NCBI RefSeq assembly: GCF_002233675.1
Contig: NZ_NMUQ01000001.1
Location: 795,519-859,518, forward strand
DNA from: Paenibacillus herberti
GTDB lineage: Bacteria; Bacillota; Bacilli; Paenibacillales; Paenibacillaceae
Direction: 5' to 3'
DNA length: 64,000 nucleotides
Shown here: positions 18,460-40,670 of the stretch, one piece after another
Layout of the letters: each line of letters starts with the position of its first letter
Numbering within the stretch: position 1 is the first letter of the stretch
Notes under the pieces: model-generated
The model's database searches: none
Told to the model about the DNA's origin: nothing
The model's input: only the letters and a program-made list of their open reading frames with translations
Translations under genes and position numbers: made by a program

Positions 18460-18623
18460 TCGGGCTGTTCTGCTGAAAACATATTTCTCTCTTTATCTCT
18501 CCGCGTGTAAATATCTGTAAGTGTATATGTTAGTTGATACATCTATCCAATTTTCCCCGTCTAGTATGGAGGACCACATTTCCGTATTGCAGCACAATTC
18601 CGAGAGATAGGGAGATTGGCAAC

Positions 18624-19133: not shown

Positions 19134-19403
19134 ATCGTGATGAAAGATAGCCAAACCCAATAAGGCGGCTCCGCAGCGTTGCCATTTCAGAACAAGCTGC
19201 ATAGGTTTGATAAGCCTCTGCAGTTGCTTTAGAAGACCTTAGCCGAGCCAACTGCCGCCGGGCGGGCGCTTTTCTCACGCCCCATGCATGTGTCTTTCAA
19301 TGGGCGTTTGTGGTAAACTAAAGCGACGAGCGGCCTCATGCCGGAAATAGACGGCACACCGGGCGGCAATTGAACTTTAATGAAATGAGATGAAGTGACA
19401 AGC

Positions 19404-20474
19404 ATGAAAGCCTTTGATCAGCCTTACGTTGTAGAAACCCCTTTTATATATGATTATTCCCTGGAGCAGCTCCAGGATTGGATGAAGGAGCAAGATGAAC
19501 CAACGTTCCGTGCGGGTCAGCTATTCGACTGGCTGTACGTGAAGCGCGTCTCTTCCTTCGAAGAGATGTCGAACTTGCCGAAGCCATTGCGGGACAAGCT
19601 TACGAGCTCTTTCCAGTTCATCACCTTGTCCGAAATAACCCGCTTTGAGTCGAAGGACGGCACGGTTAAGTTCCTGTTCGGCCTGCATGACAACCATGCG
19701 ATCGAGACGGTTATTATGCGCCATAACTATGGCAACAGCGTCTGCGTCACGACACAGGTCGGCTGCCGCATCGGCTGCACCTTCTGCGCCTCGACGCTGG
19801 GTGGACTGAAGCGCAATCTTACCTCGGGCGAGATCGTTGCCCAGGTCGTCAAGGCACAGCAGATGCTCGATCCGGAAGACCAACGCGTCTCCAGTATCGT
19901 CATTATGGGCTCGGGCGAGCCCTTTGAGAATTATGAGGCGACGATGGCGTTTCTGCGCTTGATGATTCATCCTAAGGGACTGAACATCGGTCAGCGCCAT
20001 ATTACAGTGTCTACTAGCGGCATTGTGCCTAGCATGTACAAGTTCACAGACGAGAACACCCAGATCAATCTGGCGATTTCGATCCATGCCCCGAACGACG
20101 AGCTGCGCTCTAAGCTAATGCCAGTCAATCGGCGCTATCGGTTCCAAGAGGTTATCGACGCCTGCCGCAATTATATTGCCAAAACGGGTCGCCGCATTAC
20201 CTTTGAGTACGCACTTATCGGCGGAACCAACGACCGTCCTGAGCATGCGCAGGAGCTGGCGGAAGTGCTGCAGGGCATGCTCTGTCACGTAAACTTGATT
20301 CCGGTCAACCATGTTCCGGAGCGCAAGTATGTGCGTACGCCGCGGGAGGATATTTTTGAATTCCAGCGCATTCTCGAGAAAAACGGCATTAACGCGACGA
20401 TTCGCCGCGAGCAGGGCCATGATATCGCAGCTGCCTGTGGGCAGCTCCGCGCTAAACATATGGAACTAACGTAA
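19404..20474 (+). CDS. rlmN: Dual-specificity 23S rRNA/tRNA m2A methyltransferase
   Basis: 356 aa radical-SAM enzyme that methylates C2 of A2503 in 23S rRNA and A37 in some tRNAs. The CxxxCxxC cluster motif is in [37 protein letters not shown] and the C-terminal cysteine in AAACGQLRA complete the family pattern. ATG 19404 and GTG 19395 are both possible; each has only a weak SD-like AGTGA or AGATGA. It is followed 12 bp later by prpC, and the rlmN-prpC-prkC-rsgA-rpe order is that of Bacillus. Confidence 0.93.
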
Positions 20475-20486
20475 CGAGGTGACGGG

Positions 20487-21242
20487 ATGTTAACAGTGAA
20501 CCGCAGTGATATTGGCCGCATCCGCTTGGCGAATGAGGACCGCTCTTGGGCGGGCGTTACGAGCGGGGGGCTGACACTCGCTATCGTAGCCGATGGAATG
20601 GGCGGCCATCAGGCCGGAGATGTGGCTAGCCAGCTCGCCGTGGACGCGTTCCGCGAGGCGATGGAGCCGATGCAAGCAGGAGTCTCGGCGGAAGAAGCCC
20701 AGCAGTATTTGCGCGCAGCAATCCGCCGCGCTAATGAAGTGGTTTATGACATGGCATCCCGCAACGAGCAGTATCACAATATGGGTACGACCGTTGTTGC
20801 GGCTCTTTTCATCGAGGAGTCGCTGCTGCTCATTGGTCATATCGGCGATAGTCGCGCTTATCGTATTTCTGCGGGGGCGATCTCGCTTTTGTCGGAGGAC
20901 CACACTTTGGTGAATGAGCTGGTGCGCTCCGGGCAGATCAGCTTTGAGGAAGCGGCTCATCATCCGCGCCGTAATGTACTGACACGTGCACTCGGCACGG
21001 ATGAGGAAGTTGAGTTGGACTTGCAGGTGCTGGATTGGAACTCCGGGGACATGTTGTTGTTGTGCAGCGATGGCTTAAGCGGCATGGTGAGTGACGAGGA
21101 AATGTTGGAAGTCGCACGCTCGCAAGCATCGCTGGAAGAGAAGGCGGACCGCCTGATCTCCATGGCTCTTGCAGCTGGTGGAGACGATAATATTACGGTA
21201 GTCCTGCTGCAATCCGGAGCTGGTACGGACGGAGAGGAGTGA
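20487..21242 (+). CDS. prpC: PP2C-type protein phosphatase
   Basis: 251 aa. Mn2+/Mg2+-dependent Ser/Thr phosphatase that reverses PrkC phosphorylation. Metal-binding motifs: DGMGGHQAGD, GDSRAY, LCSDGLSG and GGDDNITVV. A strong GAGGTGACGGG site precedes ATG 20487. The gap to prkC is 10 bp, so kinase and phosphatase are co-expressed. Confidence 0.95.
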   Translation: MLTVNRSDIGRIRLANEDRSWAGVTSGGLTLAIVADGMGGHQAGDVASQLAVDAFREAMEPMQAGVSAEEAQQYLRAAIRRANEVVYDMASRNEQYHNMGTTVVAALFIEESLLLIGHIGDSRAYRISAGAISLLSEDHTLVNELVRSGQISFEEAAHHPRRNVLTRALGTDEEVELDLQVLDWNSGDMLLLCSDGLSGMVSDEEMLEVARSQASLEEKADRLISMALAAGGDDNITVVLLQSGAGTDGEE

Positions 21243-21252
21243 GGACGGACTT

Positions 21253-23457
21253 ATGATCGGAAGAGAACTTGGAGGCCGCTACGAAATTTTAACCCGCATC
21301 GGAGGCGGCGGCATGGCGCTTGTTTACAAAGCGCATGACCTGCTGCTTAGCCGCAATGTAGCGGTTAAGGTGCTCCGTCAGCAATACGTGCATGATGAGG
21401 AATTTATTCGGCGATTCCGCCGCGAGGCCCAATCGGCCGCAGCTCTGTCCCATCCCAACGTAGTAAGTATTTACGATGTGGGACAAGAGGATGAAGTACA
21501 TTATATCGTCATGGAATATGTCGAAGGTTATAATCTCAACGAAGTCATACAGGAACGGGCGTCCCTGCAAGCGGATGAGGCTGTACGTATTGCAGCTCAG
21601 ATAGCGGATGCACTCGATCATGCCCATCAGAATCATATTATTCATCGGGACATCAAGCCCCATAATATTCTTATCGGCCGCAACGGCAGGGTGAAGGTGA
21701 CCGACTTCGGCATTGCTCGGGCAGTGACGTCATCGACGATTACACAAACCGGATCGGTAATTGGATCGGTGCATTACTTCTCTCCAGAGCATGCCAAGGG
21801 AGTCAGCACAGGCGAGAAGTCCGACATTTATTCACTCGGCATCGTGCTGTACCAGATGGTTACAGGCAAGCTTCCTTTTCTGGGAGAAAGCCCAATCAGC
21901 GTAGCTCTGAAGCATCTGCAGGAGCCGCTGGAGGATCCGCGGACCATCAACCCGCTAGTCCCTCAAAGCGTCGAGAATATTATTATCAAGGCGATGCGTA
22001 AAAATCCCTCCGAGCGTTACCGCACGGCAGGTGAAATGCTCGTAGATCTTGAAACGGCGCTGTCGCCGGATAGAATCAATGAGCCGAAGCGGCAATTCGG
22101 CGCCAACGACTTTGACGAGACTCGGGTCATGCCCGCTATCCGTCCAGGACGAGATTTCAAACAGTCGGCTTCTCACACAGCAGCTTCAGATGCGGCGCAG
22201 GAGGATCCGTCATTCTCTACTGCGCGTCAGCAGGCTGCCAATGAGGAGGAAGAGGATGAGCCGAAGCGGCGCAAAGCTTGGTTAAAGCCGCTTATTATTG
22301 TTTTGACTACACTAGCTCTGCTGGGCGCTGTTTATGGGGCTTTCAAGCTCGTTTCCGGATCGCTGGACGTGGCTGATGTTACTGTGCCGAATGTAGTCGG
22401 CATGACGGAGGCTGACGCCAAAGCTGCCCTTGAGGAGGCTGGCTTGCTCCTTGAGGAGCCGTCAATTCGTGCTTTCAAGCCGGATATTCCGAAGGACCAG
22501 GTATTTGCCCAGTCCAAATCGTCGAATATGCGCGTCAAGCAGGGTGCGCCGGTAAGGCTCTCCATCAGCGACGGGCCGGAACTCAAGCTGCTTGGAGATT
22601 ACAAAGGGCAAAAGGTGGCAGATGCAGTCGCCGCGCTGCAAGCTCTTGGCATTCCGGCTGAATCGATTGCCCAGACTGAGGTATTCGATGATTCGGCAGA
22701 GCCTGGCATCGTGCTTAGTCAGAATCCAGCAGCGAACAGCCAGCTTGACCCGGCTATGAGCAAGGTTACGCTGACTGTGAGCAAGGGAGCCGAGACGGTG
22801 AAGATGCCGGATCTCGTCGGTAAATCGGTGCAAGAGGCACGGAAGCTGGTCCTCCAGGCCGGTCTTCAGATGAGCGATGACAATATCGTGAATGAAGGCA
22901 GCTACAAACCGGAAGGTGAGGTGCTGTCGCAATTCCCTTATGATGCGGGCAGTCAGGCCAGCAAGGGAGCACAGGTGTCCGTTACCGTCAGCTCCGGCTT
23001 ACCGAAGGATGCGCTTGAATTTACGTTTGATCTGCTCATCTCACCGGCTCAGGCTGACAAGGCGAGCGAGATCCGCATCGTCTTTACGGATGCGACCGGC
23101 AAAGACATCCAGGCTCATAAACGGGCCATCAAGGAAACGCGGAGTTTCCCGGTCAAGGTTGTGCTCGCTCCCAATACGGAAGCATTTGTGAGCGTATATC
23201 GCGACGGTCAACTGGTCGATACGTTCTCTCGGACGTATGACGAAGTGAAGAACGGCAGCGATATGGGACCATCGACCGTACCGGGACTGGATCCGACTCC
23301 TCTGCCGAGCAATTCGCCAGGGCCGAGTCCTTCCAATGATCCCAATGCGGGCAATCCAGGTGAAGTTGATGAGACCGCTTGGAACGACAGGAACGGCAGA
23401 GATAGAGATGGTGGAGATGACAGAAACGGCGGGGGGCCGAATAATGACAACGGCTAA
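21253..23457 (+). CDS. prkC: PASTA-domain Ser/Thr protein kinase
   Basis: 734 aa membrane kinase that senses peptidoglycan fragments and, in spores, triggers germination. The cytosolic kinase domain (~1-270) has GGGGMALVYKA, VAVKVL, HRDIKPHNIL, DFGIAR and SPEHA. A charged linker leads to one membrane helix (~345-370). Three PASTA repeats follow, opening near VTVPNVVGM, LKLLGDYKG and VKMPDLVGK. The last ~45 residues form a Pro/Ser then Asn/Asp/Gly-rich tail, unusual but low-complexity. The 3' end overlaps rsgA by 14 bp. Confidence 0.95.
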   Translation: MIGRELGGRYEILTRIGGGGMALVYKAHDLLLSRNVAVKVLRQQYVHDEEFIRRFRREAQSAAALSHPNVVSIYDVGQEDEVHYIVMEYVEGYNLNEVIQERASLQADEAVRIAAQIADALDHAHQNHIIHRDIKPHNILIGRNGRVKVTDFGIARAVTSSTITQTGSVIGSVHYFSPEHAKGVSTGEKSDIYSLGIVLYQMVTGKLPFLGESPISVALKHLQEPLEDPRTINPLVPQSVENIIIKAMRKNPSERYRTAGEMLVDLETALSPDRINEPKRQFGANDFDETRVMPAIRPGRDFKQSASHTAASDAAQEDPSFSTARQQAANEEEEDEPKRRKAWLKPLIIVLTTLALLGAVYGAFKLVSGSLDVADVTVPNVVGMTEADAKAALEEAGLLLEEPSIRAFKPDIPKDQVFAQSKSSNMRVKQGAPVRLSISDGPELKLLGDYKGQKVADAVAALQALGIPAESIAQTEVFDDSAEPGIVLSQNPAANSQLDPAMSKVTLTVSKGAETVKMPDLVGKSVQEARKLVLQAGLQMSDDNIVNEGSYKPEGEVLSQFPYDAGSQASKGAQVSVTVSSGLPKDALEFTFDLLISPAQADKASEIRIVFTDATGKDIQAHKRAIKETRSFPVKVVLAPNTEAFVSVYRDGQLVDTFSRTYDEVKNGSDMGPSTVPGLDPTPLPSNSPGPSPSNDPNAGNPGEVDETAWNDRNGRDRDGGDDRNGGGPNNDNG

Positions 23458-24391
23458 CCAGCCTCCCTTTCGCAAGGGCGAGGGATTGATCGTTAAGGCT
23501 CTGAGTGGATTTTATTACGTTATGCCGGATGGGGGGCAGGAGCCCCCGTTGCAATGCCGGGCCAGGGGTATATTCAAAAATCGCGGCGAGTCTCCACTCG
23601 TCGGAGATCGAGTTGTATTCAGTGCCAGCGTGACCGGGGAAGGCACGGTCGAAGAAATTTTGCCGCGCAGTACGGAGCTGGTGCGTCCACAGGTTGCCAA
23701 CGCCGATTTGGCTGTGCTTGTATTCTCTGTGACGGAGCCCTCACTTAGTCTGACTCTGCTGGACAAGTTTCTCGTCCATATCGAGCATTCGGGGCTGGAA
23801 TCGGTGCTTTGCCTGAGCAAGCAGGACTTGTCGCTGGAAGGCAAGGATGCTGAGGAAGCGGCCCGAATCGCCGATACTGTACAGAACATTTACGGTAGGA
23901 TCGGCTATCAGGTCATCGGCACGAGCTCTCGCAAGGGCTCGGGTCTAGAAGAGCTGCGGGAAGTGCTTCACGGAAGGCTCGCGCTATTTGCCGGGCAATC
24001 CGGTGTCGGGAAGTCCTCGCTCCTTAACGCGCTTATTCCTGGGTTGACGCTGGAGACGAACGAAATCAGCTCCAAGCTTGGCCGAGGGAAGCATACGACT
24101 CGCCATGTCGAGCTCGTGAGCGTGGGAGACGGACCCCATTCGGGTTATGTGGCTGATACGCCTGGCTTCAGCCAGCTTGATTTTCAGGAGCTCGGTATTG
24201 AAGATCTCGGTTATGGCTTCCGGGAATTCCGTGAGCTGTCGCCAAACTGCAAGTTCCGGGGTTGTACTCATACCCATGAACCAGGCTGCGCGGTTACAGC
24301 GGCGCTTGATGCGGGTGAAGCCGCGCAGAGTCGCTACGACAGCTATGTGCAGTTTTTGAACGAAATGAAAGAACAAAAGCGGAGGTACTAA
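23444..24391 (+). CDS. rsgA: Ribosome small-subunit-dependent GTPase
   Basis: 315 aa, circularly permuted GTPase that checks late 30S maturation (CpgA/YloQ of Bacillus). An OB-fold N terminus ([13 protein letters not shown]) is followed by the permuted G motifs: SKQD (G4) before [12 protein letters not shown] (G1) and DTPGFSQ (G3). The zinc knuckle at the C terminus shows C..C.H..H..C in [14 protein letters not shown]. Start ATG 23444 lies inside the prkC tail with a G-run ribosome site, giving a 14-bp overlap. Bacillus PrkC phosphorylates this protein. Confidence 0.94.
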
Positions 24392-24393
24392 CT

Positions 24394-25038
24394 ATGACGA
24401 TTATTGCACCCTCGATACTAGCCGCTGACTTTTCCAAGCTTGGACAAGAAATCGCCGATATCGAAAAAGCTGGAGCTGACTGGATTCATGTGGATGTCAT
24501 GGACGGACACTTTGTGCCGAACCTAAGCTTCGGGCCTGCGGTAATTTCATCTGTACGTAACGCGACGGCTCTGGCCTTCGATGTCCATCTGATGATTTCT
24601 CAGCCGGAGCGTTACATAGCCGATTATGCCGCAGCGGGGGCAGATCGGATTACGGTCCATCTAGAAGCCTGTACTCATCTGCACCGGACCCTGCATCAGA
24701 TCAAGGATCTTGGCTTGCCTGCTGGTGTTGCTATTAATCCTGCGACTCCGATCAGCTTGCTGGAGCCAGTTCTGGAGGATGTAGACCTTGTGCTAATCAT
24801 GACGGTGAATCCCGGGTTCGGAGGACAGTCCTTCATTCCTTATTCGTTGGAGAAGCTACGTGAGCTGAGGCAGCGTCTGACCGCTCGGGGGCTAAGCGGA
24901 GTCCATGTACAGGTAGATGGAGGTATCAACGCTTCTACGGCATCTCTCGTGCGCCAGGCAGGGGCAAATGTGCTTGTAGCAGGCAGCTATGTATTCGGCA
25001 ATGAGTCGCCTTCCGCCGCGATTTCTTCGCTTAGGTAG
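24394..25038 (+). CDS. rpe: Ribulose-phosphate 3-epimerase
   Basis: 214 aa TIM-barrel enzyme of the pentose-phosphate pathway interconverting ribulose 5-P and xylulose 5-P. Motifs: [38 protein letters not shown] and QVDGGI. GGAGGT lies 8 nt before ATG 24394, and the gene begins 2 bp after rsgA. Length is standard. Confidence 0.95.
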
Positions 25039-25047
25039 GGCGAAGCG

Positions 25048-25317
25048 ATGGGATCCAAGCTCAAGAGCTTTGCGCTGGTCGCTGGTTATGGATTGTTGGG
25101 AGGCGCACTGCTGGCTCTTTTTGTACTCGTGCCAGGCATTGTGCGCTTCGCTTTCTCGTTGTTGGCTCTATGGCTGGGCGTGCGGTTTTTCCGCTCCCAT
25201 AGCTCTATTGCCCGACGAATCGGCTTTATTGTCTGTTCGTTCGTCTTTTTCATCTTGATCGTGTTATACGTTACGATGGTAACGTTCCTCAGAGATGGAA
25301 TGCCGACTGCTCCGTAG
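25048..25317 (+). CDS. Small integral membrane protein, unknown
   Basis: 89 aa and mostly hydrophobic, with about three helices (residues ~8-30, 30-46, 56-79) and no family I can name. It begins 9 bp after rpe and ends before a terminator, so it is probably the last gene of the prpC-to-rpe operon. The ribosome site is weak (TAGGGCGAAG). Bacillus has thiN at this position; this protein does not resemble it. Confidence 0.6.
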   Translation: MGSKLKSFALVAGYGLLGGALLALFVLVPGIVRFAFSLLALWLGVRFFRSHSSIARRIGFIVCSFVFFILIVLYVTMVTFLRDGMPTAP

Positions 25318-25376
25318 GGCTAGACGTTTACAATTGGGCTCGTCCCCCGGAATAGGACGCACACGACCCGCATAGG

Positions 25377-25416
25377 ATGGTTACATGAACTTCAGGTTCT
25401 TGTAGCCATTTTTTAT
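25377..25416 (+). terminator. Terminator of the rlmN-rpe operon
   Basis: A 14-bp stem (two non-pairing or G-T positions), ATGGTTACATGAAC with GTTCTTGTAGCCAT, is followed by TTTTTT. Confidence 0.8.
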
Positions 25417-25517
25417 TTCCCATGGGAATGTACCCAGGACGGCCTGAAGCAGGGACGAACATGCAGGCCCGGCAGTGCTTTTGGACTACGATCAGCGATT
25501 CCGAGGGGGGATGAAAC

Positions 25518-25598
25518 ATGAGATTTTATACGATCAAGCTGCCGAAGTTTCTGGGCGGTTTCGTCAAGGCCATCTTGAACACCTTCCAAAAAAGCTGA
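25518..25598 (+). CDS. spoVM: Stage V sporulation protein M
   Basis: 26 aa: MRFYTIKLPKFLGGFVKAIL, then NTFQKS. It matches the Bacillus amphipathic helix (start M-K-F-Y-T-I-K-L-P-K-F-L-G-G) that recognises the convex forespore membrane and anchors SpoIVA to build the spore coat basement. Pro9 and the FLGG core, important in Bacillus, are kept. A GAGGGGGG site lies 8 nt before ATG 25518. Its place between rpe and rpmB is the same as in Bacillus. Confidence 0.93.
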   Translation: MRFYTIKLPKFLGGFVKAILNTFQKS

Positions 25599-25639
25599 GA
25601 AACGATAGCCAGCTGCCGGCCGCCCGTTTTATGAGATAA

Positions 25640-25680
25640 AAAAAAGAGCACCCGGCCGACGGCAAGGGTGCTCTCTTTCC
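25640..25680. terminator. Bidirectional terminator between spoVM and rpmB
   Basis: The stem AGAGCACCC/GGGTGCTCT is flanked by an A-run on the left and TCTTTCC on the right. Confidence 0.85.
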
Positions 25681-25684
25681 TTTA

Positions 25685-25723
25685 AAAAACAGCGTCCGCT
25701 GTCCAGAAGGACGGCAGACGCTA
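25685..25723 (-). terminator. Terminator of rpmB
   Basis: A 14-bp stem AGCGTCCGCTGTCC/GGACGGCAGACGCT (with G-T pairs) ends in GTTTTTT on the minus strand, 14 bp past the rpmB stop. Confidence 0.85.
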
Positions 25724-25736
25724 CCTGTGAAGTCTC

Positions 25737-25925
25737 TTATACACGTGAGACTTTGCCGGATTTCAGTGCGCGGGTGCTGACCCAAACGCGTTTTGGCTTG
25801 CCGTCGACCAGAATGCGGACCTTCTGAACGTTGACGCCCCAAGTGCGGCGGTTGCGGTTATTCGCGTGTGAAACGTTATTTCCTGTGCCGGGTGTTTTAC
25901 CCGTAATGAAGCATTTGCGAGACAT
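25737..25925 (-). CDS. rpmB: 50S ribosomal protein L28
   Basis: 62 aa. Begins [20 protein letters not shown] and carries [14 protein letters not shown] near-perfect AAAGGAGGTG ribosome site sets ATG 25925, so the upstream in-frame start is rejected. Only the first cysteine of the zinc-binding C+ form is visible (RKCF); the usual CxxC pairs are absent, so this is a C- form by sequence. It is divergent from yloU, as in Bacillus. Confidence 0.95.
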
Positions 25926-26002
25926 GCGGTACACCTCCTTTAGAGCTAGCAGGTTGCAAGTACGAAATCTAAGGTCGATTCCGTAGGCAAACATACTTGG
26001 TT

Positions 26003-26031
26003 ATCTTAACATAGAACAAGCGGCTCTTCAA
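26003..26031 (-). promoter_or_regulatory. Candidate rpmB promoter
   Basis: Minus-strand TTGAAG and TAAGAT with 17-nt spacing, about 80 bp upstream of rpmB. Confidence 0.35.
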
Positions 26032-26106
26032 CCATCGTTTGGCAGATTCCGTTTGCGGCCAAACGGGAGAAAAAGCGAGAAAATGGAAGGGAAAGGTGTT
26101 TCAGAC

Positions 26107-26135
26107 TTCATAATCGGCTTCATTTATAGTACAAT
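26107..26135 (+). promoter_or_regulatory. Candidate yloU-fakA promoter
   Basis: TTCATA and TACAAT with 17-nt spacing, about 85 bp before yloU; the -10 is good, the -35 weak. Confidence 0.4.
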
Positions 26136-26221
26136 GAATTTCAGTCCCGGCTAATATGGGGCCTTAGGGCTCAGGCGGCTCAAGACGAGCGGCCCGATAA
26201 GAAGGAGCGTGTTACCCTGCC

Positions 26222-26581
26222 ATGCCTATGCAGCTAACCAACGAACTAGGTAAAATCAATGTTACAGACGATGTTATCGCCGTTATTGCAGGCTCGGCAG
26301 CGCTGGAATGCTACGGCCTGGTCGGCATGGCTTCCCGCAAGCAGCTCAAGGACGGCATCGCCGAGCTTCTGAAGAGGGACAACCTCTCCCGCGGCGTCGA
26401 AGTAAGACGCGAGAACGAGGAGACACATATCGACCTGCACATCATCGTGGGCTATGGTACCCGGATTTCCGAGGTCGCCCATAACATCCAGACTAAGGTC
26501 AAATACGTACTGAATGAAGTGATCGGCCTGCGGGTCGACCATGTCCATATTTTTGTCCAGGGCGTGCGGGTCATCAGTTAG
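26222..26581 (+). CDS. yloU: Asp23/Gls24 family envelope-stress protein
   Basis: 119 aa. It has the DUF322 core with INVTDDVIAVIAGSAALECYG and HIIVGYGTRISEVAHNIQ. Family members are linked to envelope stress and, by gene neighbourhood, to fatty-acid kinase. ATG 26222 has AGGAG 14 nt upstream; ATG 26228 is an alternative. It sits 20 bp before fakA in the same order as yloU-yloV of Bacillus. Confidence 0.9.
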   Translation: MPMQLTNELGKINVTDDVIAVIAGSAALECYGLVGMASRKQLKDGIAELLKRDNLSRGVEVRRENEETHIDLHIIVGYGTRISEVAHNIQTKVKYVLNEVIGLRVDHVHIFVQGVRVIS

Positions 26582-26601
26582 ACAGGAAGGGGAAATTTTG
26601 C

Positions 26602-28419
26602 TTGAGAAAGCGCTCTATTAATGGTTCAGACTTCGCCGGTATGGTTTTGCTCGGTGCGGAGAATTTGCAGCGTGGCGCGGAACATGTCAACGCTCTGAAT
26701 GTGTTTCCCGTTCCGGACGGAGATACGGGAACGAATATGAACTTAACGATGGCCTCCGGTGTCCGGGAGCTGCAAAGCAAACGCTCGGACTCAATCGGCC
26801 GTACGGCAGAGGCGCTGTCCAAGGGTCTGCTGATGGGTGCACGCGGCAATTCCGGCGTTATTCTTTCGCAGCTGTTCCGCGGAACAGCCAAGGCGCTCGC
26901 CGGAATGGACGAGGCTGGTCCTGTCCAGTTTGCCGCTGCCCTGCAGCAAGGTGTCGACATGGCCTACAAGGCCGTGGTCAAGCCAGTTGAGGGCACGATC
27001 CTGACCGTAGCTAGGGAGACAGCTCGCCATGCTCAGCAGGTGGCGCGGCGTATAAGCGATATGGAGACGCTCATGCAAGAGGTCTATGACAAGGCCCATG
27101 AGACGCTCCAACGCACGCCGGATATGCTGCCCGTGCTGAAGCAGGTCGGCGTTGTCGATTCCGGCGGACAAGGTCTCGTATTAATTTACGAGGGCTTTCT
27201 GGACTATCTCGTGGGAAGGTCTTCCGACTCAGCCGAGATGGCCTCTGAGGCTGCCCCGGTAGAATCGTTCAAGGATCTGCCTGGAACGGTTGCCCGTTCT
27301 ACGGAACCTGCGCGCGGTTATGCGCAAGCGGCTCCGGCTGTTAACGCTGGCAGCAAGGCTCAAGCTCAACTGTCGACGAACGAGATCCAGTTTTTCTACG
27401 ACATGGAATTTTTCATCAAGCGCAAGCTGGCTGCTCCGGGAGCGCCTGCATTTGATGAGGAAGCGTTCCGCAAGGCTCTGGCCCAGGACGGGGATTCCAT
27501 TATCGTCATCTCGGACGAGGATATCATCAAAATTCATGTTCATTCCCGCCGTCCCGGCGACGTACTGAGCCTAGCAATGCCTTATGGCGAGTTGACCGAG
27601 CTTCATATCCTCAATATGCGGGAGCAGCATCGCGAGCTTGTCGGCGAAGAGATCAACTTCAACGGGGCTGCAACTGATCTGGCTCCTGATGAAGCTTTGG
27701 CAGTTGCCGAGGTGCTGGCTGGCTCCGTACCGCAAGGGGGCGCGGAAGCCGTTCATGAATGGGCGCCTTACGGCATCGTGGCCGTAGCTATCGGCGAGGG
27801 CATTTCCGGCATTTTCCTGGACAATAATGTCGACATTGTTCTCTCCGGCGGACAGACGATGAATCCGAGCACAGAAGATTTTCTCAAGGCGATTGATTCC
27901 CTTCCGGCCGAGCATATCTTCCTGTTGCCCAACAATAGCAACATCATTCTGGCTGCTGAGCAGGCGGCCGAGCTGTCCGAGCGTTCGGTATCGGTCATTT
28001 CGACCCGCACCGTGCCGCAAGGCCTAGCCGCAGTGCTAGCCTTTAAGGACAGTGAGACACCAGATCGCAACATCGCACTGATGGGCGGAGCGGCGGAAGT
28101 GGTCCGTTCCGGCAGCGTCACACAGGCGGTGCGCAACACCGAGATCGACGGAGTAGAAGTGCAGGAAGGCGACTTCATCGGCATCGTTGAGAAGAAGATC
28201 GTCGTATCCGAAGCGGACTTACAGCTTGCCTGCCGAGGCCTCATTAACGAGCTTCTGGAGAACGGCGGCGATCTGCTGACGATTTTGACAGGTGAAGGCT
28301 CCGAGGCAGAACATACAGATGAGCTGTCTTCTTGGGTAACGGAGACGTACCCGGATGTGGAGCTCGAAGTACATGAAGGCGGACAGCCGCTCTACCCATA
28401 TCTGTTCGCTCTGGAATAA
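26602..28419 (+). CDS. fakA: Fatty acid kinase catalytic subunit FakA (YloV)
   Basis: 605 aa. Phosphorylates fatty acids held by a FakB/DegV protein so that exogenous acids can enter phospholipids. The N-terminal DhaL/DAK2 kinase domain has PVPDGDTGTNMNLTM (Mg-ATP Asp residues) and GARGNSGVILSQ. A Pro/Ala-rich linker at ~205-255 is followed by the middle and C-terminal FakB-interacting domains (SGGQTMNPSTEDFL). Family members are commonly about 550 aa, so the linker is long. Start is TTG 26602 with GGAAGGGG upstream. The fakA-degV pairing is meaningful because DegV is the acyl-carrying partner. Confidence 0.9.
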   Translation: MRKRSINGSDFAGMVLLGAENLQRGAEHVNALNVFPVPDGDTGTNMNLTMASGVRELQSKRSDSIGRTAEALSKGLLMGARGNSGVILSQLFRGTAKALAGMDEAGPVQFAAALQQGVDMAYKAVVKPVEGTILTVARETARHAQQVARRISDMETLMQEVYDKAHETLQRTPDMLPVLKQVGVVDSGGQGLVLIYEGFLDYLVGRSSDSAEMASEAAPVESFKDLPGTVARSTEPARGYAQAAPAVNAGSKAQAQLSTNEIQFFYDMEFFIKRKLAAPGAPAFDEEAFRKALAQDGDSIIVISDEDIIKIHVHSRRPGDVLSLAMPYGELTELHILNMREQHRELVGEEINFNGAATDLAPDEALAVAEVLAGSVPQGGAEAVHEWAPYGIVAVAIGEGISGIFLDNNVDIVLSGGQTMNPSTEDFLKAIDSLPAEHIFLLPNNSNIILAAEQAAELSERSVSVISTRTVPQGLAAVLAFKDSETPDRNIALMGGAAEVVRSGSVTQAVRNTEIDGVEVQEGDFIGIVEKKIVVSEADLQLACRGLINELLENGGDLLTILTGEGSEAEHTDELSSWVTETYPDVELEVHEGGQPLYPYLFALE

Positions 28420-28500
28420 CCGGCGCTATGGCGCCTCATTACTTGGCTCCTTTCCGCGCGCAACAGCGATGACGGAATGGAGTCCGTGGAGGTAGCGACA

Positions 28501-29358
28501 ATGACTCAGGTTCGTATTGTGACCGACAGCACTTCGGATATCCCGCAGGAGATCCGCGAGCGTCTCGGCATCGAGATGGTGCCGTTGCAGGTTCTGTTCG
28601 GCAGTGAATCCTTCCTGGATTCGGTTACGCTGAAGTCGGAGCAGTTCTATGACAAGCTGATCGCCTTCAATGGCTTGCCGACGACCTCACAGCCTTCTCC
28701 TGCGGAATTCATTACGGTTTATGAGCGTCTTCTGGATGAAACTCCAGAGGCGTCTATCCTATCCATCCATCTATCCTCCCAGTTCAGCGGAACGTATCAG
28801 TCCGCGATGCTGGGGAGTACTATGCTGGAGCGGGAAGCGGATATCTCGGTATTCGATTCTCGCACCGCCTCGTGCGGGATTGGCATGCTCGTCGTCAAGG
28901 CGGCTGAGATGGCGCAGTCCGGCAGCTCCAAGGAAGAGATCCTTCGGGAGATTGAGCGGATGCGTAGTGAGACCGAGCTTTATTTTCTGGTCGAGACGCT
29001 GGAATACTTACAAAAAGGCGGTCGAATCGGCAAAGCATCTGCACTTATCGGTTCTATTCTGAACATCAAGCCGATTCTTTCGATTGATTCCTCTGGCGTT
29101 ATCGTACCGGTAGACAAAGTCCGTGGGACCAAAAAGGCCATTCTACGCATTATCGAGCTGCTCAAAGGCAAGTTTCCAGCGGATGTACCGGTTTCGGTTC
29201 ATTTTGCCTGGACGAGTCAGAGGGGTTCAGCTCTGGAGCTGTATGAAGCGGTCAATGCCAACTTTAACGTAGCCAGCACTTCAACCACGACGCTCGGTCC
29301 GGTCATCGGCACCCATGTTGGACCCGGTACCGTAGCCGTCTTTATGCAAAAGATATGA
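28501..29358 (+). CDS. DegV family fatty-acid-binding protein (FakB-like)
   Basis: 285 aa. Binds a fatty acid whose carboxylate is phosphorylated by FakA. Typical motifs: RIVTDSTSDIP, LSSQFSGTYQSA, LEYLQKGGRIGKA and GTHVGPGTVAVF. A GGAGGTAGCGAC site sets ATG 28501; an in-frame ATG eight codons earlier is less likely. The stop overlaps the recG start (ATGA), so this gene links lipid salvage and DNA repair in one transcript, as is common in the order. Confidence 0.9.
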   Translation: MTQVRIVTDSTSDIPQEIRERLGIEMVPLQVLFGSESFLDSVTLKSEQFYDKLIAFNGLPTTSQPSPAEFITVYERLLDETPEASILSIHLSSQFSGTYQSAMLGSTMLEREADISVFDSRTASCGIGMLVVKAAEMAQSGSSKEEILREIERMRSETELYFLVETLEYLQKGGRIGKASALIGSILNIKPILSIDSSGVIVPVDKVRGTKKAILRIIELLKGKFPADVPVSVHFAWTSQRGSALELYEAVNANFNVASTSTTTLGPVIGTHVGPGTVAVFMQKI

Positions 29359-33431: not shown

Positions 33432-35168
33432 TTAGCCGGTTGCAACGGCTACCCAGTGCCCTTTTTTCACTTCCACGAATTCGGAGCGTTCGAGCCCGTA
33501 GGGATCAGCTTTGGAAGCTTCCTCATGCGTCACTAGCTTCTTCTGCGATTCAACCTTGGGATCGGGTACCGGGATGGCCGCCAGCAGCGACTTCGTATAG
33601 GCATGGATCGGGTTTGTGTAAAGCTCCTCGCTTTCGGCAAGCTCCACGATCTTCCCTTTATACATCACCGCCACGCGGTCGCTAATATGCTTCACCATCG
33701 ATAGATCATGGGCGATGAACAGATACGTGAGACCAAGCCTTTGCTGAAGTTCCTCAAGCAGCTTCACGATCTGGGCTTGAATCGAAACGTCGAGAGCGGA
33801 CAACGGCTCGTCACAGACGATAAATTCCGGTTCCACGGCGAGCGTCCGCGCAATGCCGATCCGCTGGCGCTGGCCGCCGGAAAACTCATGCGGGTACCGC
33901 ATGGCATGAGAAGGGTCAAGCCCAACCATCTCAAGCAGTTCCTCGACACGTCTCTGACGATCCCGCTTGGAGGTCGTTATATCGTGCACATCAAGAGCCT
34001 CGCCGATAATATCCATGATGCGAAGTCTTGGGTTCAGCGATGCGTAGGGATCCTGGAAGATCATTCCCATATGCCGCCTCATTGTTTTCATCTCTGAGCG
34101 GTTTAATTGCTGGAGTGGTATCCCTTTGAAAAGCACCTCGCCTCCCGTCGCTTCATGTAAGCGGAGAATCGTGCGCCCAGTCGTCGACTTGCCGCTGCCG
34201 GATTCACCTACAACGCCGAGCGTCTCGCCTGCCTGTATATCGAAGCTAATATCGTTAACCGCTTTAACAATCTGTCCTTTTCCCATATCAAAATACTGCT
34301 TCAAGGCACGAACCTGCAGTAGAGGCACGCCCTCTTCACGCTGAACCATTGAAGGCACGGGCTTTGTTTTTTTCTTCTCGTCCAAGCGCGGTAATGCGTT
34401 GAGAAGCTTAATGGTGTATGGATGCTGCGGATTTGCAAAAATTTGCTCCGTTGTCCCCGTCTCGACGATTTCTCCGTCCTTCATCACGACGACGCGGTCA
34501 CACATGCCGGCCACGACGCCGAGGTCATGCGTAATTAAAATAATGGAGGTACCCAGCTGCTTCTGTATATCCTTCATCTGGTTAAGGATCTGTGCTTGTA
34601 TGGTCACGTCAAGCGATGTTGTCGGCTCATCTGCGATAAGGAGCGAAGGACGACACGCCAGCGCAATGGCGATCATGACCCGCTGACGCATCCCGCCAGA
34701 GAATTCATGAGGATACTGATGATAGCGGGTTTCGCTGTTGGGAATACCTACGAGCTTCAGCATTTCAATAGCTTCCGTCCGGGCTTGCTTCTTGTCCAGC
34801 TTGCGATGTTTGATCAAGCTTTCTTCAATTTGGTTGCCGATCTTCATCGTAGGATTAAGGGAGGACATGGGATCTTGAAAGATCATCCCGATATCCCTTC
34901 CGCGTATGGCTTCCATTTCTTTGTCGGTTTTAAAGGCAAGGTTTTGGCCTTGAAAAAGCACCTCGCCGTTTTTCACCATGGAAGGAGGAGAGGGCAGGAG
35001 CCTCATAATCGTACGTGCGGTAACGCTTTTGCCGCTGCCGGATTCGCCTACGATTCCCAGCGTTTCGCCTTTACGGACTTCAAAGCTGACATGGCGAACA
35101 GCTTCTATTTCTTTGTCACGGGTGAAAAAAGAAACCGATAGATCATTAACTTGTAATAATGTGTCCAT
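33432..35168 (-). CDS. Oligopeptide-type ABC transporter, two ATPase domains fused
   Basis: 578 aa cytosolic ATPase with DppD-like and DppF-like halves in one chain, as in GsiA. First half: GESGSGKSVTART, SGGMRQRVMIA, LLIADEPTTSLD. Second half: GESGSGKSTTGRT, SGGQRQRIGIA, FIVCDEPLSALD. The C-terminal oligopeptide-binding tails (IPVPDPK and NALPRLDEK) are present. Starts at 35168 (AGGTG, 5 nt) and 35207 (AAGGA, 7 nt) both have ribosome sites; 35168 matches the family. It is divergent from the permease-binding protein genes at 35291, with a 120-bp shared promoter region, and most likely powers that system. Confidence 0.88.
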   Translation of the reverse strand: MDTLLQVNDLSVSFFTRDKEIEAVRHVSFEVRKGETLGIVGESGSGKSVTARTIMRLLPSPPSMVKNGEVLFQGQNLAFKTDKEMEAIRGRDIGMIFQDPMSSLNPTMKIGNQIEESLIKHRKLDKKQARTEAIEMLKLVGIPNSETRYHQYPHEFSGGMRQRVMIAIALACRPSLLIADEPTTSLDVTIQAQILNQMKDIQKQLGTSIILITHDLGVVAGMCDRVVVMKDGEIVETGTTEQIFANPQHPYTIKLLNALPRLDEKKKTKPVPSMVQREEGVPLLQVRALKQYFDMGKGQIVKAVNDISFDIQAGETLGVVGESGSGKSTTGRTILRLHEATGGEVLFKGIPLQQLNRSEMKTMRRHMGMIFQDPYASLNPRLRIMDIIGEALDVHDITTSKRDRQRRVEELLEMVGLDPSHAMRYPHEFSGGQRQRIGIARTLAVEPEFIVCDEPLSALDVSIQAQIVKLLEELQQRLGLTYLFIAHDLSMVKHISDRVAVMYKGKIVELAESEELYTNPIHAYTKSLLAAIPVPDPKVESQKKLVTHEEASKADPYGLERSEFVEVKKGHWVAVATG

Positions 35169-35290
35169 GTATGCACCTGCAATTCTGTCGTTTTCCGATA
35201 TTGACATATTCCAATCCTTAAAATAAAATTTACTATACTGATCGGAATAATTCAATTTAAAATTATTAGGATGAAAGGAAGCGGACTAGC

Positions 35291-36733
35291 TTGAAAGGGC
35301 ATGCAACTGCAACGGGTAATGGCTTTGTTGATCCTATTGCCGCCATCTACCGCAAAATGTTACTACATCCGGCCTACAGTCTGCTTATATTGCTGTTAGG
35401 AGCACCCGTATCCGCCATCGTGTATGTCGTTCTTCAATATCGTAAATTCAAGTACGGCTACAAACTCATCGCTGAGGAGACGAGGAACAAGCTGCTTGCA
35501 ACCGGGTACCGGGACAAATTGCTGCTGGAGGCTAAGGATCAGCTTATTCGTAAGCATCGTTTCTTCGGGCAAACCGTCAGCACAGGGCAGACCGAACTGG
35601 AAGCGAACCGGATGGCTGAGATCAAATTCAAGGAAACGTTCAACCATGAGCTGGAGAAACGGCTTGCCGGTGAGAACGGGCTGAAGTTTTCGTTTGGCGA
35701 CACGTATCATAGGCTAGCCTTGAATCCTGCCTTTTTTACATTATCAGTAATTATCGGTTTTCCAATGTACTTACTGTTGGCAATCTATTCAATGCCATAC
35801 TTGAAATACGTTGCCGAACGAATGGTGATGTCTATATTCGTAATTTTGGGAGTCGCTTTTCTCGTATTTACGATCCTATATATATCGCCTATGAATCCAG
35901 CGGCTAACTTATTAGGAGAAACAGCGACCGCCGAGCAAATCGCAGCGTTCAACCATCTTTATGGTTTGGATCAACCCTATTTTGTTCAGCTATGGGACAC
36001 GATTAGAGGCATATTTACTTTCGATCTCGGCAAATCTTTCGCAGGCAACGAGAATGTTACTGCAGCCATCGCGAATAAATTCCCGGTGACGCTAACGTTA
36101 ACGGCTATCTCGACGCTGATTGCTGTATTGATCGCTCTGCCAATCGGCATTATTTCGGCTACAAGACCTAATTCTTTCTTTGATTATACCTTTATGTTCA
36201 TCGCTTTGCTGGGATTGTCGATCCCGAATTTCTGGCAGGCTCTTATTTTTATTTTGAATTTCTCGATTAAACTTCCATGGTTGCCCGCAACGTATAACCC
36301 CGAGAACTGGCTGTCTGCAATTATGCCGATCGTCGTTTTAGGTACGGGCCTAACGGCTGCTGTAGCCCGAATGACCCGATCATCAACGCTGGAGGTCATC
36401 CACGAGGATTACATTACAACCGCAAGGGCCAAAGGGCTTGCCCGAAAAACTGTCATATGGAAACATGCCGTAGGTAACGCGCTTATCCCAATTATTACGG
36501 TCATCGGCCTGCAGTTTGGCGGAATGCTCGGCGGAGCGGCGGTTACAGAGAAAGTATTCAATATTAGCGGTATAGGTAGTTATATCGTAGATAAGCAGTT
36601 CATTCCTGACATTCCTAGCGTGATGGGCGGGGTCGTCTATACAGCCATTACCATCTCGATCGTGAACGTTATCGTCGATTTGATGTACGCGTTTTTTGAT
36701 CCTAGAATCCGTTCGAAAATGAAACAATACTAA
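35291..36733 (+). CDS. DppB-type ABC permease with long N-terminal extension
   Basis: 480 aa. The C-terminal ~310 residues are a normal oligopeptide permease: [37 protein letters not shown] and the coupling helix [21 protein letters not shown]. The first ~165 residues are extra: one membrane helix (28-48), then a charged, probably cytosolic segment of about 95 residues before the first core helix. AmiC of streptococci also has an insertion of this kind. Start TTG 35291 with AAAGGA about 13 nt upstream. It forms an operon with the next three genes. Confidence 0.82.
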
Positions 36734-36747
36734 AGCAGGTGCTACTC

Positions 36748-38256
36748 TTGACGAATCCTACTATCAGCAAGCAAGAAGTCAGATTCAGACTGAAATCAAA
36801 TCAAGAATACAGTCAAGCGAGCTTCGCTGGCATCGTATCCTTGGCGCTGGGTTTTGTTCTTCTGCTAAACAGTTATGTTCCCGGAGACGGGTCATTTAAG
36901 CCTGCAGTACTCATTGCAAGCATTGCCTATTTTGCCTTCGCGCTGCTTGAGCTGGCGGTATGGGCGCTCATTCGAAACGATCTTATCCGTTCTGGCGCCA
37001 TTAGACGTTCTACAAGGATGCTTGGTTACGTATTGCTGTTAAGTATTCTAACCGCTAACGTGTTCGTGGCAACCATGGCGTTTCAGCTCATTAAGCAGAA
37101 AAAAAGTGCGGCGTACACACTAGCCGTTTATTCGCTGCTTACGACTTTGCTCGTATTCGCGGTGTCAGCCCTCAATCTATTTAAGCCTTATGTAGCTAAC
37201 GGATTTCTAATCGGCATGTTTTTGCTGATCGTTGCCGCCATCCTGCAGCTCGCAGCATTGCTTCTAGTTGCCAAGCATGCAGATAAAGCAGTTATGCCAC
37301 GCTGGATGGGACTCATTGCCGGCATACTTATTTTAACTTCGGTGTCCGGCAACTTGTTCGCTTTATTTCTTGGGTTATTGCTGATTGCCAAGCTGCGGGA
37401 CAAGGGTTATTCATCCGGTTCCAAGCTGGGGGAAGTCGTGGAGCGGCTGTCGAGAAGCTCGACTTCCATGTTGGGACTGCTCTTCATCCTGTTCCTGCTC
37501 ACGTTGTCCATAACCAGTTACCTGACTTTTGATTACGGACTTGCGATTGAGAACAACTACAGCTTAATTCTTCAATCTCCTGAGCTGGCCTATCCGCTAG
37601 GAACGGATAACTTCGGTAGAGATCTGTTCTCGCGTATAGTTTTCGGCGCGCGCATCTCATTGGCCGTTGGCCTATTGTCAACACTCATACCCCTCCTGAT
37701 CGGGGGCGTACTGGGTGCAGTCTCCGGTTATTATGGACGGCATACAGACAACATTATTATGAGAATACTCGATATCCTCTATGCGATTCCGGGCATTCTG
37801 CTAGCCATTGCCATTATCGCGGCATTCGGCGCAAGTACGGTCAATTTAATTTTGGCACTCAGTGTAGGCGCGATCCCCACTTATGCACGGACAATGAGAG
37901 CCAATGTCATGCTCGTATCCACTTTGGAATATGTACAGGCTGCTAGAGCTTTCGGCTCTAGTGACCGGACTATTTTGTTCAAGCATATCGTACCGAACTC
38001 CATCGCGCCGATGATTGTAAAATCTACGCTGACGATTGGCACCGTTGTCATCTCGACCAGCAGCTTGAGCTATTTGGGTCTCGGCGTAGAGCCTCATATT
38101 CCGGAGTGGGGCAATATTTTAAAGCTCGGAAGCGCCTATCTCGAGACGCATGCCTTTACGGCTGTCTATCCGGGACTTGCGATTATCGCGCTTGTGCTTT
38201 CCTTCAACTTCCTTGGAGACGGTTTGCGCGACGCGCTTGATCCAAAGCTTGATTAA
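36748..38256 (+). CDS. DppC-type ABC permease with extra N-terminal helices
   Basis: 502 aa. The core (residues ~235-502) has [30 protein letters not shown] and the coupling loop [19 protein letters not shown], typical of DppC. The first ~220 residues add about seven hydrophobic helices not found in ordinary DppC (about 300 aa). Start TTG 36748 has AGGTG six bases upstream; GTG 36739, inside that site, is less likely. It begins 14 bp after the DppB-type gene. Confidence 0.8.
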
Positions 38257-38373: not shown

Positions 38374-40200
38374 ATGAAGAACAAAGGCAAATTCGCCGCA
38401 TTGGTGCTACTTATTTTTTCGATTATGCTTAGCGCCTGCCAATTAACAACTAAGAAAGACGTGAAGGAATCACCTGCACCAACGCAAGGAACTGTTGTTG
38501 ACAGTAATCCTGTTGACATCGAACTGCTTGGCATGAGCTCGAACGAGGCTGACCTTAACATCGTTCGCGACCAGCTTACTAAAAACGGATTTAAAGTTAA
38601 ATTGAACATACAGGCCGATTATGGCAGCTACAAATCACAGCAGGACGCGGGCAATTTTGATATTGCTTTGTCCAGCTGGACTACCGTTACAGGCAATCCC
38701 GACTACGCGGTACGCTCGCTCTTCAAAACTGGCGGAGACTATAGCATCCTTGCTGATCCAGAAATCGATAAATTGATTGATGCTGCCGGTGCTCAAACGC
38801 CAGAACAGTACACGGAAACCTACAAGCAATTCGAGCAGCAGCTCGTCTTCGACAAGGCTTATATCGCGCCGCTATACAACTCACTGAAAGCACAGGCTTT
38901 GAATCAGGACGTACTGAACAAGGACTCTGTCCGAATCTCGAAGTCACGTTCCCTTCCTTGGGAAGACGTTGATTTTAAAGACACTTCGAAGCGCGAAAAA
39001 GATGCGCTAGTCCTTCAGTCGACTATGCCGACGCTGACGTCGCTTGATCCGATCAAAGGCAACGACGGCTCCATTAATATTATCAATACCAATATGTACG
39101 CTCGGTTAGTGAATCTGACAGATGACGATAAAATCACATCGGAAGGTTCCCTATCTTTAAATCATGCCATTGCCGAAGGCAATTCTGATTATTACTTTAT
39201 CCTAAGAGACGATATCAACTTTGCCCAAATCAAAAACAAACTCGCGGCAGATACTGGCGAACGTGTTGGCGCTGACGATGTGATCTTCTCGCTGAACCGC
39301 GCGAAGGACAAAAACTCGGTGCCTGACCACCGCACATTCACTCTTCACGAGCATATCAAGAATGTGGAGCTGGTAACGGATGCCGCAGCACTGGAAGCTG
39401 TTAAGCTCTCCGGTGGCAGCGACACTGTGAAATCCGCACTTGAGCAAGGCCTTGGAACAAAAATTTCCGAGCTCGTATCCGATAAGAAACAAGCGAACAA
39501 CAAAGAGGGCAAATACCAAGTCGTTAAGCTTACAACGACTGAGCCATTCCCTCAAGTGCTGAACTATTTGGCTCACCAGTCGGCAGGCATCGTGTCCAAG
39601 AAACAAGTAGAGAGCATCAATACGTACGACGTAGCTAAATTCGATGTGAACAAAGATATTCCTTATGGCGACCAAAATACGGTAACGGAAGGCAATGCGT
39701 ATAACAATACACTATATACAAGCGGTCCTTACATCCTGTCCTCCAAAAACGATTACGAGGCGACTTTCTATAAAAACCCTGCTTATATGACAGGCACGGA
39801 AAATGAGCCGAATATTGCTAATATTAAGATCCGCTTCATTAAGGACGCAGACAGCAGCTTGTCCGCGCTTCGCAGTGGTGAGATTCATCTCTACTACGGC
39901 GTATCGGAGACGAAATTCGACGTCGTGAAGGGCGACAGCAAGCTGGCGCTTCAAATGGTACAGAGCAACGCTGTTTCTTACTTGCTCTTCAATACGAAAA
40001 ACCGCCCAGTCGCGGAAAGCGCAGACCTGCGGAAAGCTGTTCTTTACTCCATTAACCAGGATGAAATCTTGGCTTTCTACAAAGGCAACAAGTTCAAAGC
40101 CTTCTCTACACTTAGCCCGATTGTCAATACAGGCTTAGAGCTGAAAGCCGATCCGGCAAAAGCGAAAGAATTCCTAAACGCCTACAAAGCGAGCAAGTAA
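38374..40200 (+). CDS. Family 5 solute-binding lipoprotein, apparently circularly permuted
   Basis: 608 aa. Signal peptide with lipobox LSAC, lipid-attached Cys22. The segment after the linker (residues ~50-180: KNGFKVKLNIQADYGSYK, NFDIALSSWTT, YKQFEQQLVFDKAYIAPLYNS) is what normally forms the last part of SBP_bac_5 proteins. The segment that normally opens the family follows it: STMPTLTSLDPIKG (~215), ADDVIFSLNRAKD (~305), SGPYILSSKNDYEATFY (~452), and the chain ends at DLRKAVLYSINQDEIL then DPAKAKEFLNAY, where ordinary members continue into the missing C-terminal part. A strong AGGAGGGG site precedes ATG 38374. Expected to deliver peptides or similar solutes to the two permeases. Confidence 0.85.
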   Translation: MKNKGKFAALVLLIFSIMLSACQLTTKKDVKESPAPTQGTVVDSNPVDIELLGMSSNEADLNIVRDQLTKNGFKVKLNIQADYGSYKSQQDAGNFDIALSSWTTVTGNPDYAVRSLFKTGGDYSILADPEIDKLIDAAGAQTPEQYTETYKQFEQQLVFDKAYIAPLYNSLKAQALNQDVLNKDSVRISKSRSLPWEDVDFKDTSKREKDALVLQSTMPTLTSLDPIKGNDGSINIINTNMYARLVNLTDDDKITSEGSLSLNHAIAEGNSDYYFILRDDINFAQIKNKLAADTGERVGADDVIFSLNRAKDKNSVPDHRTFTLHEHIKNVELVTDAAALEAVKLSGGSDTVKSALEQGLGTKISELVSDKKQANNKEGKYQVVKLTTTEPFPQVLNYLAHQSAGIVSKKQVESINTYDVAKFDVNKDIPYGDQNTVTEGNAYNNTLYTSGPYILSSKNDYEATFYKNPAYMTGTENEPNIANIKIRFIKDADSSLSALRSGEIHLYYGVSETKFDVVKGDSKLALQMVQSNAVSYLLFNTKNRPVAESADLRKAVLYSINQDEILAFYKGNKFKAFSTLSPIVNTGLELKADPAKAKEFLNAYKASK

Positions 40201-40214
40201 TGGAGAAATCACGA

Positions 40215-40670
40215 ATGGCTGACAAATTGAAGCCCAAAACGAAACTATCACAATGGGATGCTCTAATGTTGGAATCCCTGAAGGTATACGGTTGGCCAGG
40301 TAGTGAGCTCATTAGTAGAGTTCAGGCTGGTAATCTGCCTACGGATGAAAGCAAGTTCCAATTTCAGTATGCCGCTTTAACCGAATTGGCGAATGGGGAC
40401 GCAGAGACCTTCTCGCAAGCCGTAATGAACGGCTACCAAATCAAGTACAACACGATTCGCGGTATTCACAGCTGGATACTCGTTGCGCTCAAGCAAGAAG
40501 CGGAGCTTATTTTGGAGCCGGAGAAGGAAGTAGTCATCGTCCATTTGTCAGAAGCTGACGCGCAGCGTCTAGCGTCCGTCCTGTCATTCGGATGGGGCTT
40601 ATCCCCCCATGAGGGAGCGCAAGACGGGGACGGAAGAGCCCCGTATAGAGTCGCGCCTATTAGAGCATAA
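40215..40670 (+). CDS. Unknown cytosolic protein in the ABC operon
   Basis: 151 aa, no signal peptide or membrane helix, not recognised. Mixed alpha/beta character with KTKLSQWDALMLESLKVYG near the start and VVIVHLSEADAQRLASVLSFG near the end. ATG 40215 has GGAGA nine bases upstream; ATG 40200, overlapping the binding-protein stop, is a second choice. Tight spacing says it is co-expressed with the permuted binding protein and may be an accessory or regulatory subunit; that is inference. Confidence 0.65.
   Translation: MADKLKPKTKLSQWDALMLESLKVYGWPGSELISRVQAGNLPTDESKFQFQYAALTELANGDAETFSQAVMNGYQIKYNTIRGIHSWILVALKQEAELILEPEKEVVIVHLSEADAQRLASVLSFGWGLSPHEGAQDGDGRAPYRVAPIRA

Follow-up and report, generated by a model that had tools for sequence, protein, structure and literature searches.

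The closest described system is the GisABCD-Ggt importer, in which a fused ATPase is encoded divergently from a lipoprotein binding protein, GisD, and a pair of permeases that carry additional membrane segments (PMC10355420). The gisABCD-ggt genes let Staphylococcus aureus use glutathione and its disulfide as a sulfur source (PMC10355420), and work with a gisD mutant indicates that growth on low glutathione needs Gis (PMC12510641). The published search for Gis covered only genomes that hold ggt and lists a nearly complete system for B. subtilis (PMC10355420). GisD is described there as a lipoprotein, its topology drawing no comment, and the string 'permut' has zero occurrences in the main text of either of the two papers found that name GisD (PMC10355420; PMC12510641). 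Natural circular permutation of an ABC binding protein is known from cluster B, in the lipid-anchored, sugar-binding TpMglB-2 (Tp0684, 'cluster Bc') of Treponema pallidum, which has Gram-positive homologues and in which the permutation makes a fourth hinge crossing (PMC4990184). Our literature search, which covered mostly journals open without subscription, returned TpMglB-2 as the only natural case and no report of a permutation for family 5 or for GisD. Binding proteins of family 5 rank with the most common nutrient receptors, and it is usual to regard their tether and topology as invariable; a clean, conserved permutation in a relative of a glutathione importer makes it testable whether the place of the lipid anchor matters for substrate hand-over.

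The DNA analysed here (a stretch of 64,000 nucleotides, the window) belongs to a 5.4 Mb genome, and the closest named relatives of its permuted gene are from Paenibacillus. This gene (38374–40200, + strand) is an open, intact reading frame that spans 608 codons, starts with ATG and is preceded at a distance of a few bases by AGGAGGGG; it is readable without any frameshift or stop, as an earlier note on this DNA had stated. Its product (P0001) is very probably the substrate-binding lipoprotein of a Gis-like ABC importer with a circularly permuted family 5 (cluster C) fold. The translation starts with a predicted lipoprotein signal peptide (38374–38439, +) that ends in LSAC, the lipidated cysteine, Cys22, being invariant in 19 of 19 aligned members. 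It is followed by a variable and probably flexible tether (residues 23–44; 38440–38505, +), with low conservation and a pLDDT of ~30 over the first 20 mature residues. Block 1 (residues 45–203; 38506–38982, +) then corresponds to the C-terminal portion of family 5 binding proteins, and a new linker of ~8 residues (~204–211; 38983–39006, +), placed by comparison by eye with the paralogue L113 and by a 19-member alignment, leads from the old C-terminus to the old N-terminus. Block 2 (residues 212–608 plus stop; 39007–40200, +) represents the N-terminal and middle part of the family and ends after the DPAKAKEFL helix.

The earlier note had claimed that the C-terminal family motifs come first and the N-terminal ones after them, and the profile matches bear this out. 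In the whole protein, SBP_bac_5 (PF00496) was the sole Pfam family (E 3.9e-40; 138.6 bits versus a cut-off of 32.4), residues 267–603 matching profile positions 13–275. Scanned alone, the front part matched positions 301–366 of the 368 in the same profile (fragment residues 17–82, i.e. protein residues 57–122) at 32.9 bits, barely above the cut-off, while a match of this fragment to OpuAC stayed below threshold (15.8 bits versus 21.2). Profile positions 301–366 thus stand before 13–275, which is not the canonical linear order of the domain; the separate scans place the first block in the C-terminal part of the profile and the second in the preceding part, as had been proposed, and the suggested limits (45–190 and 210–608) were essentially right (~45–203 and ~212–608 here). 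NCBIfam and PDB sequence matches agree, residues 44–173 falling on positions 382–514 of the 543 in the NCBIfam OppA profile, residues 45–174 on OppA 357–489, residues 223–319 on HbpA 20–112 and residues 450–602 on DppA 210–364. No solved structure of a member of the permuted family was among the PDB matches, and the whole-protein Pfam scan, giving SBP_bac_5 alone, did not point to a cluster B (type I) sugar-binding fold, the class to which TpMglB-2 belongs (PMC4990184). It is because of the permutation that canonical profiles match such proteins in pieces only.

The two blocks also abut almost exactly. The chain ends at about DppA 342 or OppA 355 and block 1 starts at OppA 357, so that the chain stops where the displaced part would normally follow, again in line with the earlier note. 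At the other joint, judged by eye, the C-terminal motif SKSRSLPWEDVDF (the end of paralogue L113 reads SPTGSEPYSEVYF) is separated by ~8 residues from the N-terminal motif LVLQSTMPTLTSLDP (LIVARGGDAASLDP in L113), and no structural element of the family 5 fold appears to be lost at the joints. Block 2 is ~75 residues longer than its canonical counterpart (337 residues on 263 SBP_bac_5 profile positions). We rotated at many points a profile of 44 members (alignment A1 holds 44 of 54 sequences, from the window and 53 loci) and compared it with five family 5 paralogues of canonical order encoded in the same genome (L113–L117). In native order the best single alignments scored 38.1 (L113), 13.6 (L114) and 15.5 bits (L115), rising to 61.1, ~28.9 and ~35.6 bits respectively when the end was joined to the start; the two very distant paralogues, L116 and L117, matched in no order.

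Structure prediction with AlphaFold2 (44 sequences, mature chain) gave one good model of five, with a mean pLDDT of 80.0 and a pTM of 0.81 and with block 1 mostly well predicted, although its residues 198–214 and 401–424 (model numbering) fell below a pLDDT of 50; the remaining four models had mean pLDDT values of 64–69. When Foldseek matches were re-checked with VIA-align, a DALI-like program, residues 210–608 (model residues 189–587) superposed on DppA 1–342 with Z 19.3 and an rmsd of 3.0 over 322 aligned residues. Block 1 was left unaligned, as must happen with a sequential aligner, and we did not take this to mean that the fold is missing. We infer the placement of block 1 inside the second lobe from sequence homology, by which residues 45–203 would complete this lobe and, with it, one two-lobed fold. 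The protein shares SBP_bac_5 and, over residues 210–608, the same predicted fold (Z ~19) with canonical DppA, OppA, YliB/GsiB, GbpA/HbpA and NikA, but differs from them in the linear order of the two parts, in a tether that would enter the other lobe and in the ~75 extra residues of block 2.

Homologues with the swapped order, for which the earlier note had proposed a search, do exist. In a collection of one genome per species all 53 loci show it, every listed match spanning at least residues 49–594, and these loci come from Paenibacillus, Bacillus, Cytobacillus, Neobacillus, Lederbergia, Sporosarcina, Lentibacillus and Alkaliphilus, Alkaliphilus peptidifermentans (L051) being a named member outside Bacilli. 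Within the bacterial family of the window 97 of 295 genomes were positive, 92 with full-length genes in swapped order (one of them, G129, with an internal stop) and five with broken copies or fragments; in the class sample the gene was found in 35 of 398 genomes (34 full-length and one fragment, in G619), and in the phylum sample in two of 299, both from the family of the window. These genome searches score just the candidates of a loose first look, so that absence from them is no proof. The gene is under strong purifying selection (dN/dS ~0.05–0.08 against five relatives). Broken or fragmentary permuted genes were seen in six single genomes (G188, G214, G222, G236, G284 and G619), which suggests recent losses.

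The permuted gene lies in a cassette with the arrangement of Gis, a fused ATPase divergent from two permeases and a lipoprotein binding protein. Both permeases exceed the known families in length. The GisB/OppB-like permease (480 amino acids; 35291–36733, +) has an N-terminal extension of 170 residues with two hydrophobic segments before a core that starts at ~171 (Pfam and NCBIfam core matches start at 171–177; hydropathy). In the GisC/OppC-like permease (505 amino acids; 36739–38256, +) the extension comprises residues 1–225, its roughly six hydrophobic segments being divided between two halves that resemble each other, and the core starts at ~231, as judged by NCBIfam, hydropathy and hhalign. 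The fused OppD-OppF type, GisA-like ATPase (33432–35168, −) contains two ABC_tran stretches; its reading frame was listed up to 35255, and since many homologous frames align only from query residue 30, this residue (position 35168) is the probable start of a 578-amino-acid protein. Between this start and the first permease lies a promoter-like site (35201–35229, +; 11 of 12 matches in a consensus scan), which is only suggestive given 10 such sites in the region versus a mean of 8.3 in shuffles. A terminator scan gave 13 sites versus 5.9 expected, and Rfam gave no match within the window; nine related loci yielded three matches, whose coordinates place them outside the cassette.

Among the 62 loci longer than 8 kb that we tabulated (the window, L003–L055 and L104–L111; loci under 8 kb omitted), OppB-like and OppC-like permeases were upstream of the binding protein in all 62 and directly upstream in 60. 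At the two remaining loci, L051 and L110 (genome G651), the ATPase is encoded by two separate genes that follow the OppC-like gene and precede that of the binding protein, and a divergent fused ATPase was present at all other loci except L033, where the contig begins just before the permease. The fused ATPase frame was shorter in L018 (495 amino acids), and the OppC frame of L037 lacked part of the extension; these two loci were dropped from the tree and the distance correlations, which cover 60 of the 62 loci. Over these 60, the pairwise distances of the three proteins were correlated at 0.93–0.96.

The OppC extension (36739–37413) looks like two copies of a three-segment unit, and its halves matched each other by hhalign with a probability of 96.6% (E 6e-10), a score that hydrophobic sequence can inflate and that was obtained leaving out L104 and L105. 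Each putative unit ends in a GNxFAxxxGxxLIxK-like motif. The OppB extension (35291–35800) is fast-evolving, its two hydrophobic segments flanking a charged stretch, and shows 14–57% identity where the core has 54–91% (rows L008 to L105).

All four transporter parts are related in sequence to those of two staphylococcal loci, L104 and L105, and their binding protein, 39% identical to that of the window, is full-length, colinear and in the same permuted order. The permease cores are 51–55% identical and the binding-protein blocks 39–45%, and the ATPase matches score 545–547 bits. In the OppC-like permease of both loci the extension is about half as long, mainly the second half or copy being kept, and ggt lies directly downstream of the cassette, which reproduces the gisABCD-ggt layout (PMC10355420). 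We term these loci staphylococcal because the genes of an S. aureus record (NZ_CP077929.1), namely gisA, gisB, gisC and a gisD start covering residues 1–224, are 71–81% identical to those of L104. As block 1 stands first at this gisD start, GisD of S. aureus is most likely also permuted. In this 'plasmid' record (L112; positions 16186–28845) the gis genes run into an inverted copy that breaks off inside gisD, apparently through an error of assembly, so that the record does not contain the gene in full. What the computation shows is the permuted order and its conservation, the cassette, and the kinship with the staphylococcal system.

In the mechanism we propose, a linker of about eight residues would connect the old C-terminus to the old N-terminus, and the new chain ends would lie in one loop that follows the DPxKAkeFL helix; the fold, its two lobes and the two inter-lobe crossings should be kept. 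Since both crossings between the lobes would stay, ligand capture would be unchanged, and the ligand should be bound by lobe closure. In OppA, domain I comprises residues 1–44, 169–270 and 487–517, domain II residues 45–168 and domain III residues 271–486, and domain I holds the N-terminus as well as the C-terminus of the canonical chain. By these limits we take block 1 to comprise the latter portion of domain III together with the final strands of domain I. Both ends of the permuted protein would then lie in domain III, and the number of crossings should stay unchanged, in contrast to TpMglB-2. The lipoprotein signal now precedes the old C-terminal part, so that the tether point has moved within the chain (the earlier note expected a different tether point relative to the membrane), and the lipid tether (~22 residues after Cys22) would enter the lobe of domain III instead of domain I. 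The binding protein would hand its substrate to a permease pair with extra N-terminal membrane segments, import being powered by the ATPase, here fused.

The moved tether may have a functional effect, and the strict partnership with the extended permeases makes it attractive to treat anchor position and extensions as one unit. Full-length permuted proteins and the OppC extension coincide exactly in the class sample, the extension profile detecting 34 of the 398 genomes and these being the 34 with a full-length permuted protein (the 35th carrier, G619, has a binding-protein fragment), with the caveat that eight or more of them, among these the genome of the window, contributed rows to that profile. 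A tentative and rather unlikely extension of this idea is a distinct subtype of type I importer ('cluster Cc') in which the anchor's move from domain I to domain III and the N-terminal segments on both permeases form a co-evolved docking geometry, with the extra helices holding or orienting the anchored protein over the permease and with S. aureus GisD as the first member with a known role. The alternative that the permutation is a neutral relic, having moved tether and chain ends with no effect on function, and that the permease extensions are an unrelated feature of the cassette, is evenly balanced against a functional reading. It fits with the permuted TpMglB-2 of another cluster, which binds glucose and changes conformation (PMC4990184), and with extensions that evolve much faster than the cores (25 versus 74% and 34 versus 72% identity in L045); the coincidence of OppC extension and permuted protein in the same 34 genomes argues against it.

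For the reading as a Gis-like importer, the substrate is a separate matter. We give an even chance to glutathione, its disulfide or a related or similar peptide, and a chance only slightly short of that to the rival reading in which the protein is permuted and the non-staphylococcal members import another peptide, a metal chelate or a sulfur compound. The operon of the window was searched for ggt and none was found, so we speak of a Gis-like system instead of assigning it to GisABCD-Ggt; from the latter it differs in this position of ggt, in an OppC extension about twice the length of that in L104 and L105 and in glutathione uptake that would be presumed for its branch. Two ggt genes lie elsewhere in the genome, and these, together with permease cores still 51–55% identical to the staphylococcal ones, argue for glutathione. 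The rival draws on the long branch to the staphylococcal members (in a maximum-likelihood tree of 60 members it parts L104 and L105 from the rest, at ~3.9 changes per column in all), on the 39–45% identity of the binding protein, on the lack of any other ggt-like frame in the window and the compared loci, many of them short, and on matches to nickel-binding NikA profiles, which are far below cut-off (TIGR02294, 61 bits versus 393; NF045468, 51.4 versus 600), so that the protein does not fall into the NikA/Opp5A equivalog.

The predicted fold does not single out glutathione either, since glutathione-, dipeptide-, opine- and nickel-binding proteins tie in the fold matches; besides DppA, near-equal VIA-align matches included the GSSG-bound protein 3m8u (Z 19.0) and E. 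coli YliB 1uqw (Z 18.9), the scores differing by less than one Z unit. The glutathione reading is weakened by the long staphylococcal branch, the lack of ggt in the operon and these uninformative ties. No conserved neighbour hinted at a substrate among 26 loci, a single frame family, a membrane protein by eye, recurring in three of them. In the window the place directly downstream of the binding protein is taken by a 156-amino-acid reading frame with no Pfam or NCBIfam match (40200–40670; probable start 40215). Relatives of this frame turned up solely next to cassettes from the Paenibacillaceae part of the tree, where L037, L039 and L040 lack them. As the published search was restricted to genomes holding ggt (PMC10355420), the present loci suggest that Gis-like cassettes are wider spread than reported.

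How the swapped order arose bears on a further rival, domain shuffling, by which blocks 1 and 2 would be pieces of two distinct family 5 genes that became joined behind a signal peptide. We consider this improbable. The best NCBIfam profiles do differ between block 1 (SapA and TIGR04028) and block 2 (Opp5A_nikA), but both sets of matches are weak, the two blocks show similar identities across relatives, and in OppA/DppA numbering they abut (342–355 versus 357) with no overlap and no evident loss. Shuffling would also accommodate the lack of a close canonical parent. A search of 249 genomes with a block 2 profile found no close parent or intermediate. The two members in that sample scored 727 bits (the window itself, which contributes a row to the profile) and 711 bits (G006), no ordinary binding protein exceeded 64.5 bits, and the range in between was empty.

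It is very improbable that block 1 forms an additional domain of its own, placed ahead of a binding protein that has been truncated. Sequential aligners leave block 1 out, but it matches the part of the family that is missing from block 2, and its scores (SBP_bac_5 above cut-off, OpuAC below) do not assign it to a different family. Folded alone, block 1 gave a low-confidence model (pLDDT 58, pTM 0.38) against a pTM of 0.81 for the whole chain, which fits a segment dependent on the remainder of the fold and makes a second complete domain unlikely, although a shallow alignment could also account for the poor model; a separate extra domain was rejected as far as prediction allows. Assembly error, frameshift or decay of the gene can be dismissed. 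Broken copies or fragments do occur in five of 97 and one of 35 positive genomes (and an internal stop in G129), but the assemblies of many species share the order (53 of 53 loci, and 92 of 97 and 34 of 35 positive genomes in full length) under strong purifying selection (dN/dS 0.05–0.08).

Two minor observations concern relatives of the system. The same layout, a divergent ATPase, two long permeases and a binding protein that shares 68.6% identity with P0001, was found on a 362-kb plasmid of Metabacillus dongyingensis (L147, NZ_OK052578.1), so the cassette can be plasmid-borne. In the paralogues L116 and L117 the family 5 domains are part of longer reading frames (608 and 645 amino acids) that open with an N-terminal part that by eye is HTH-like, presumably resembling SgrR-type regulators.
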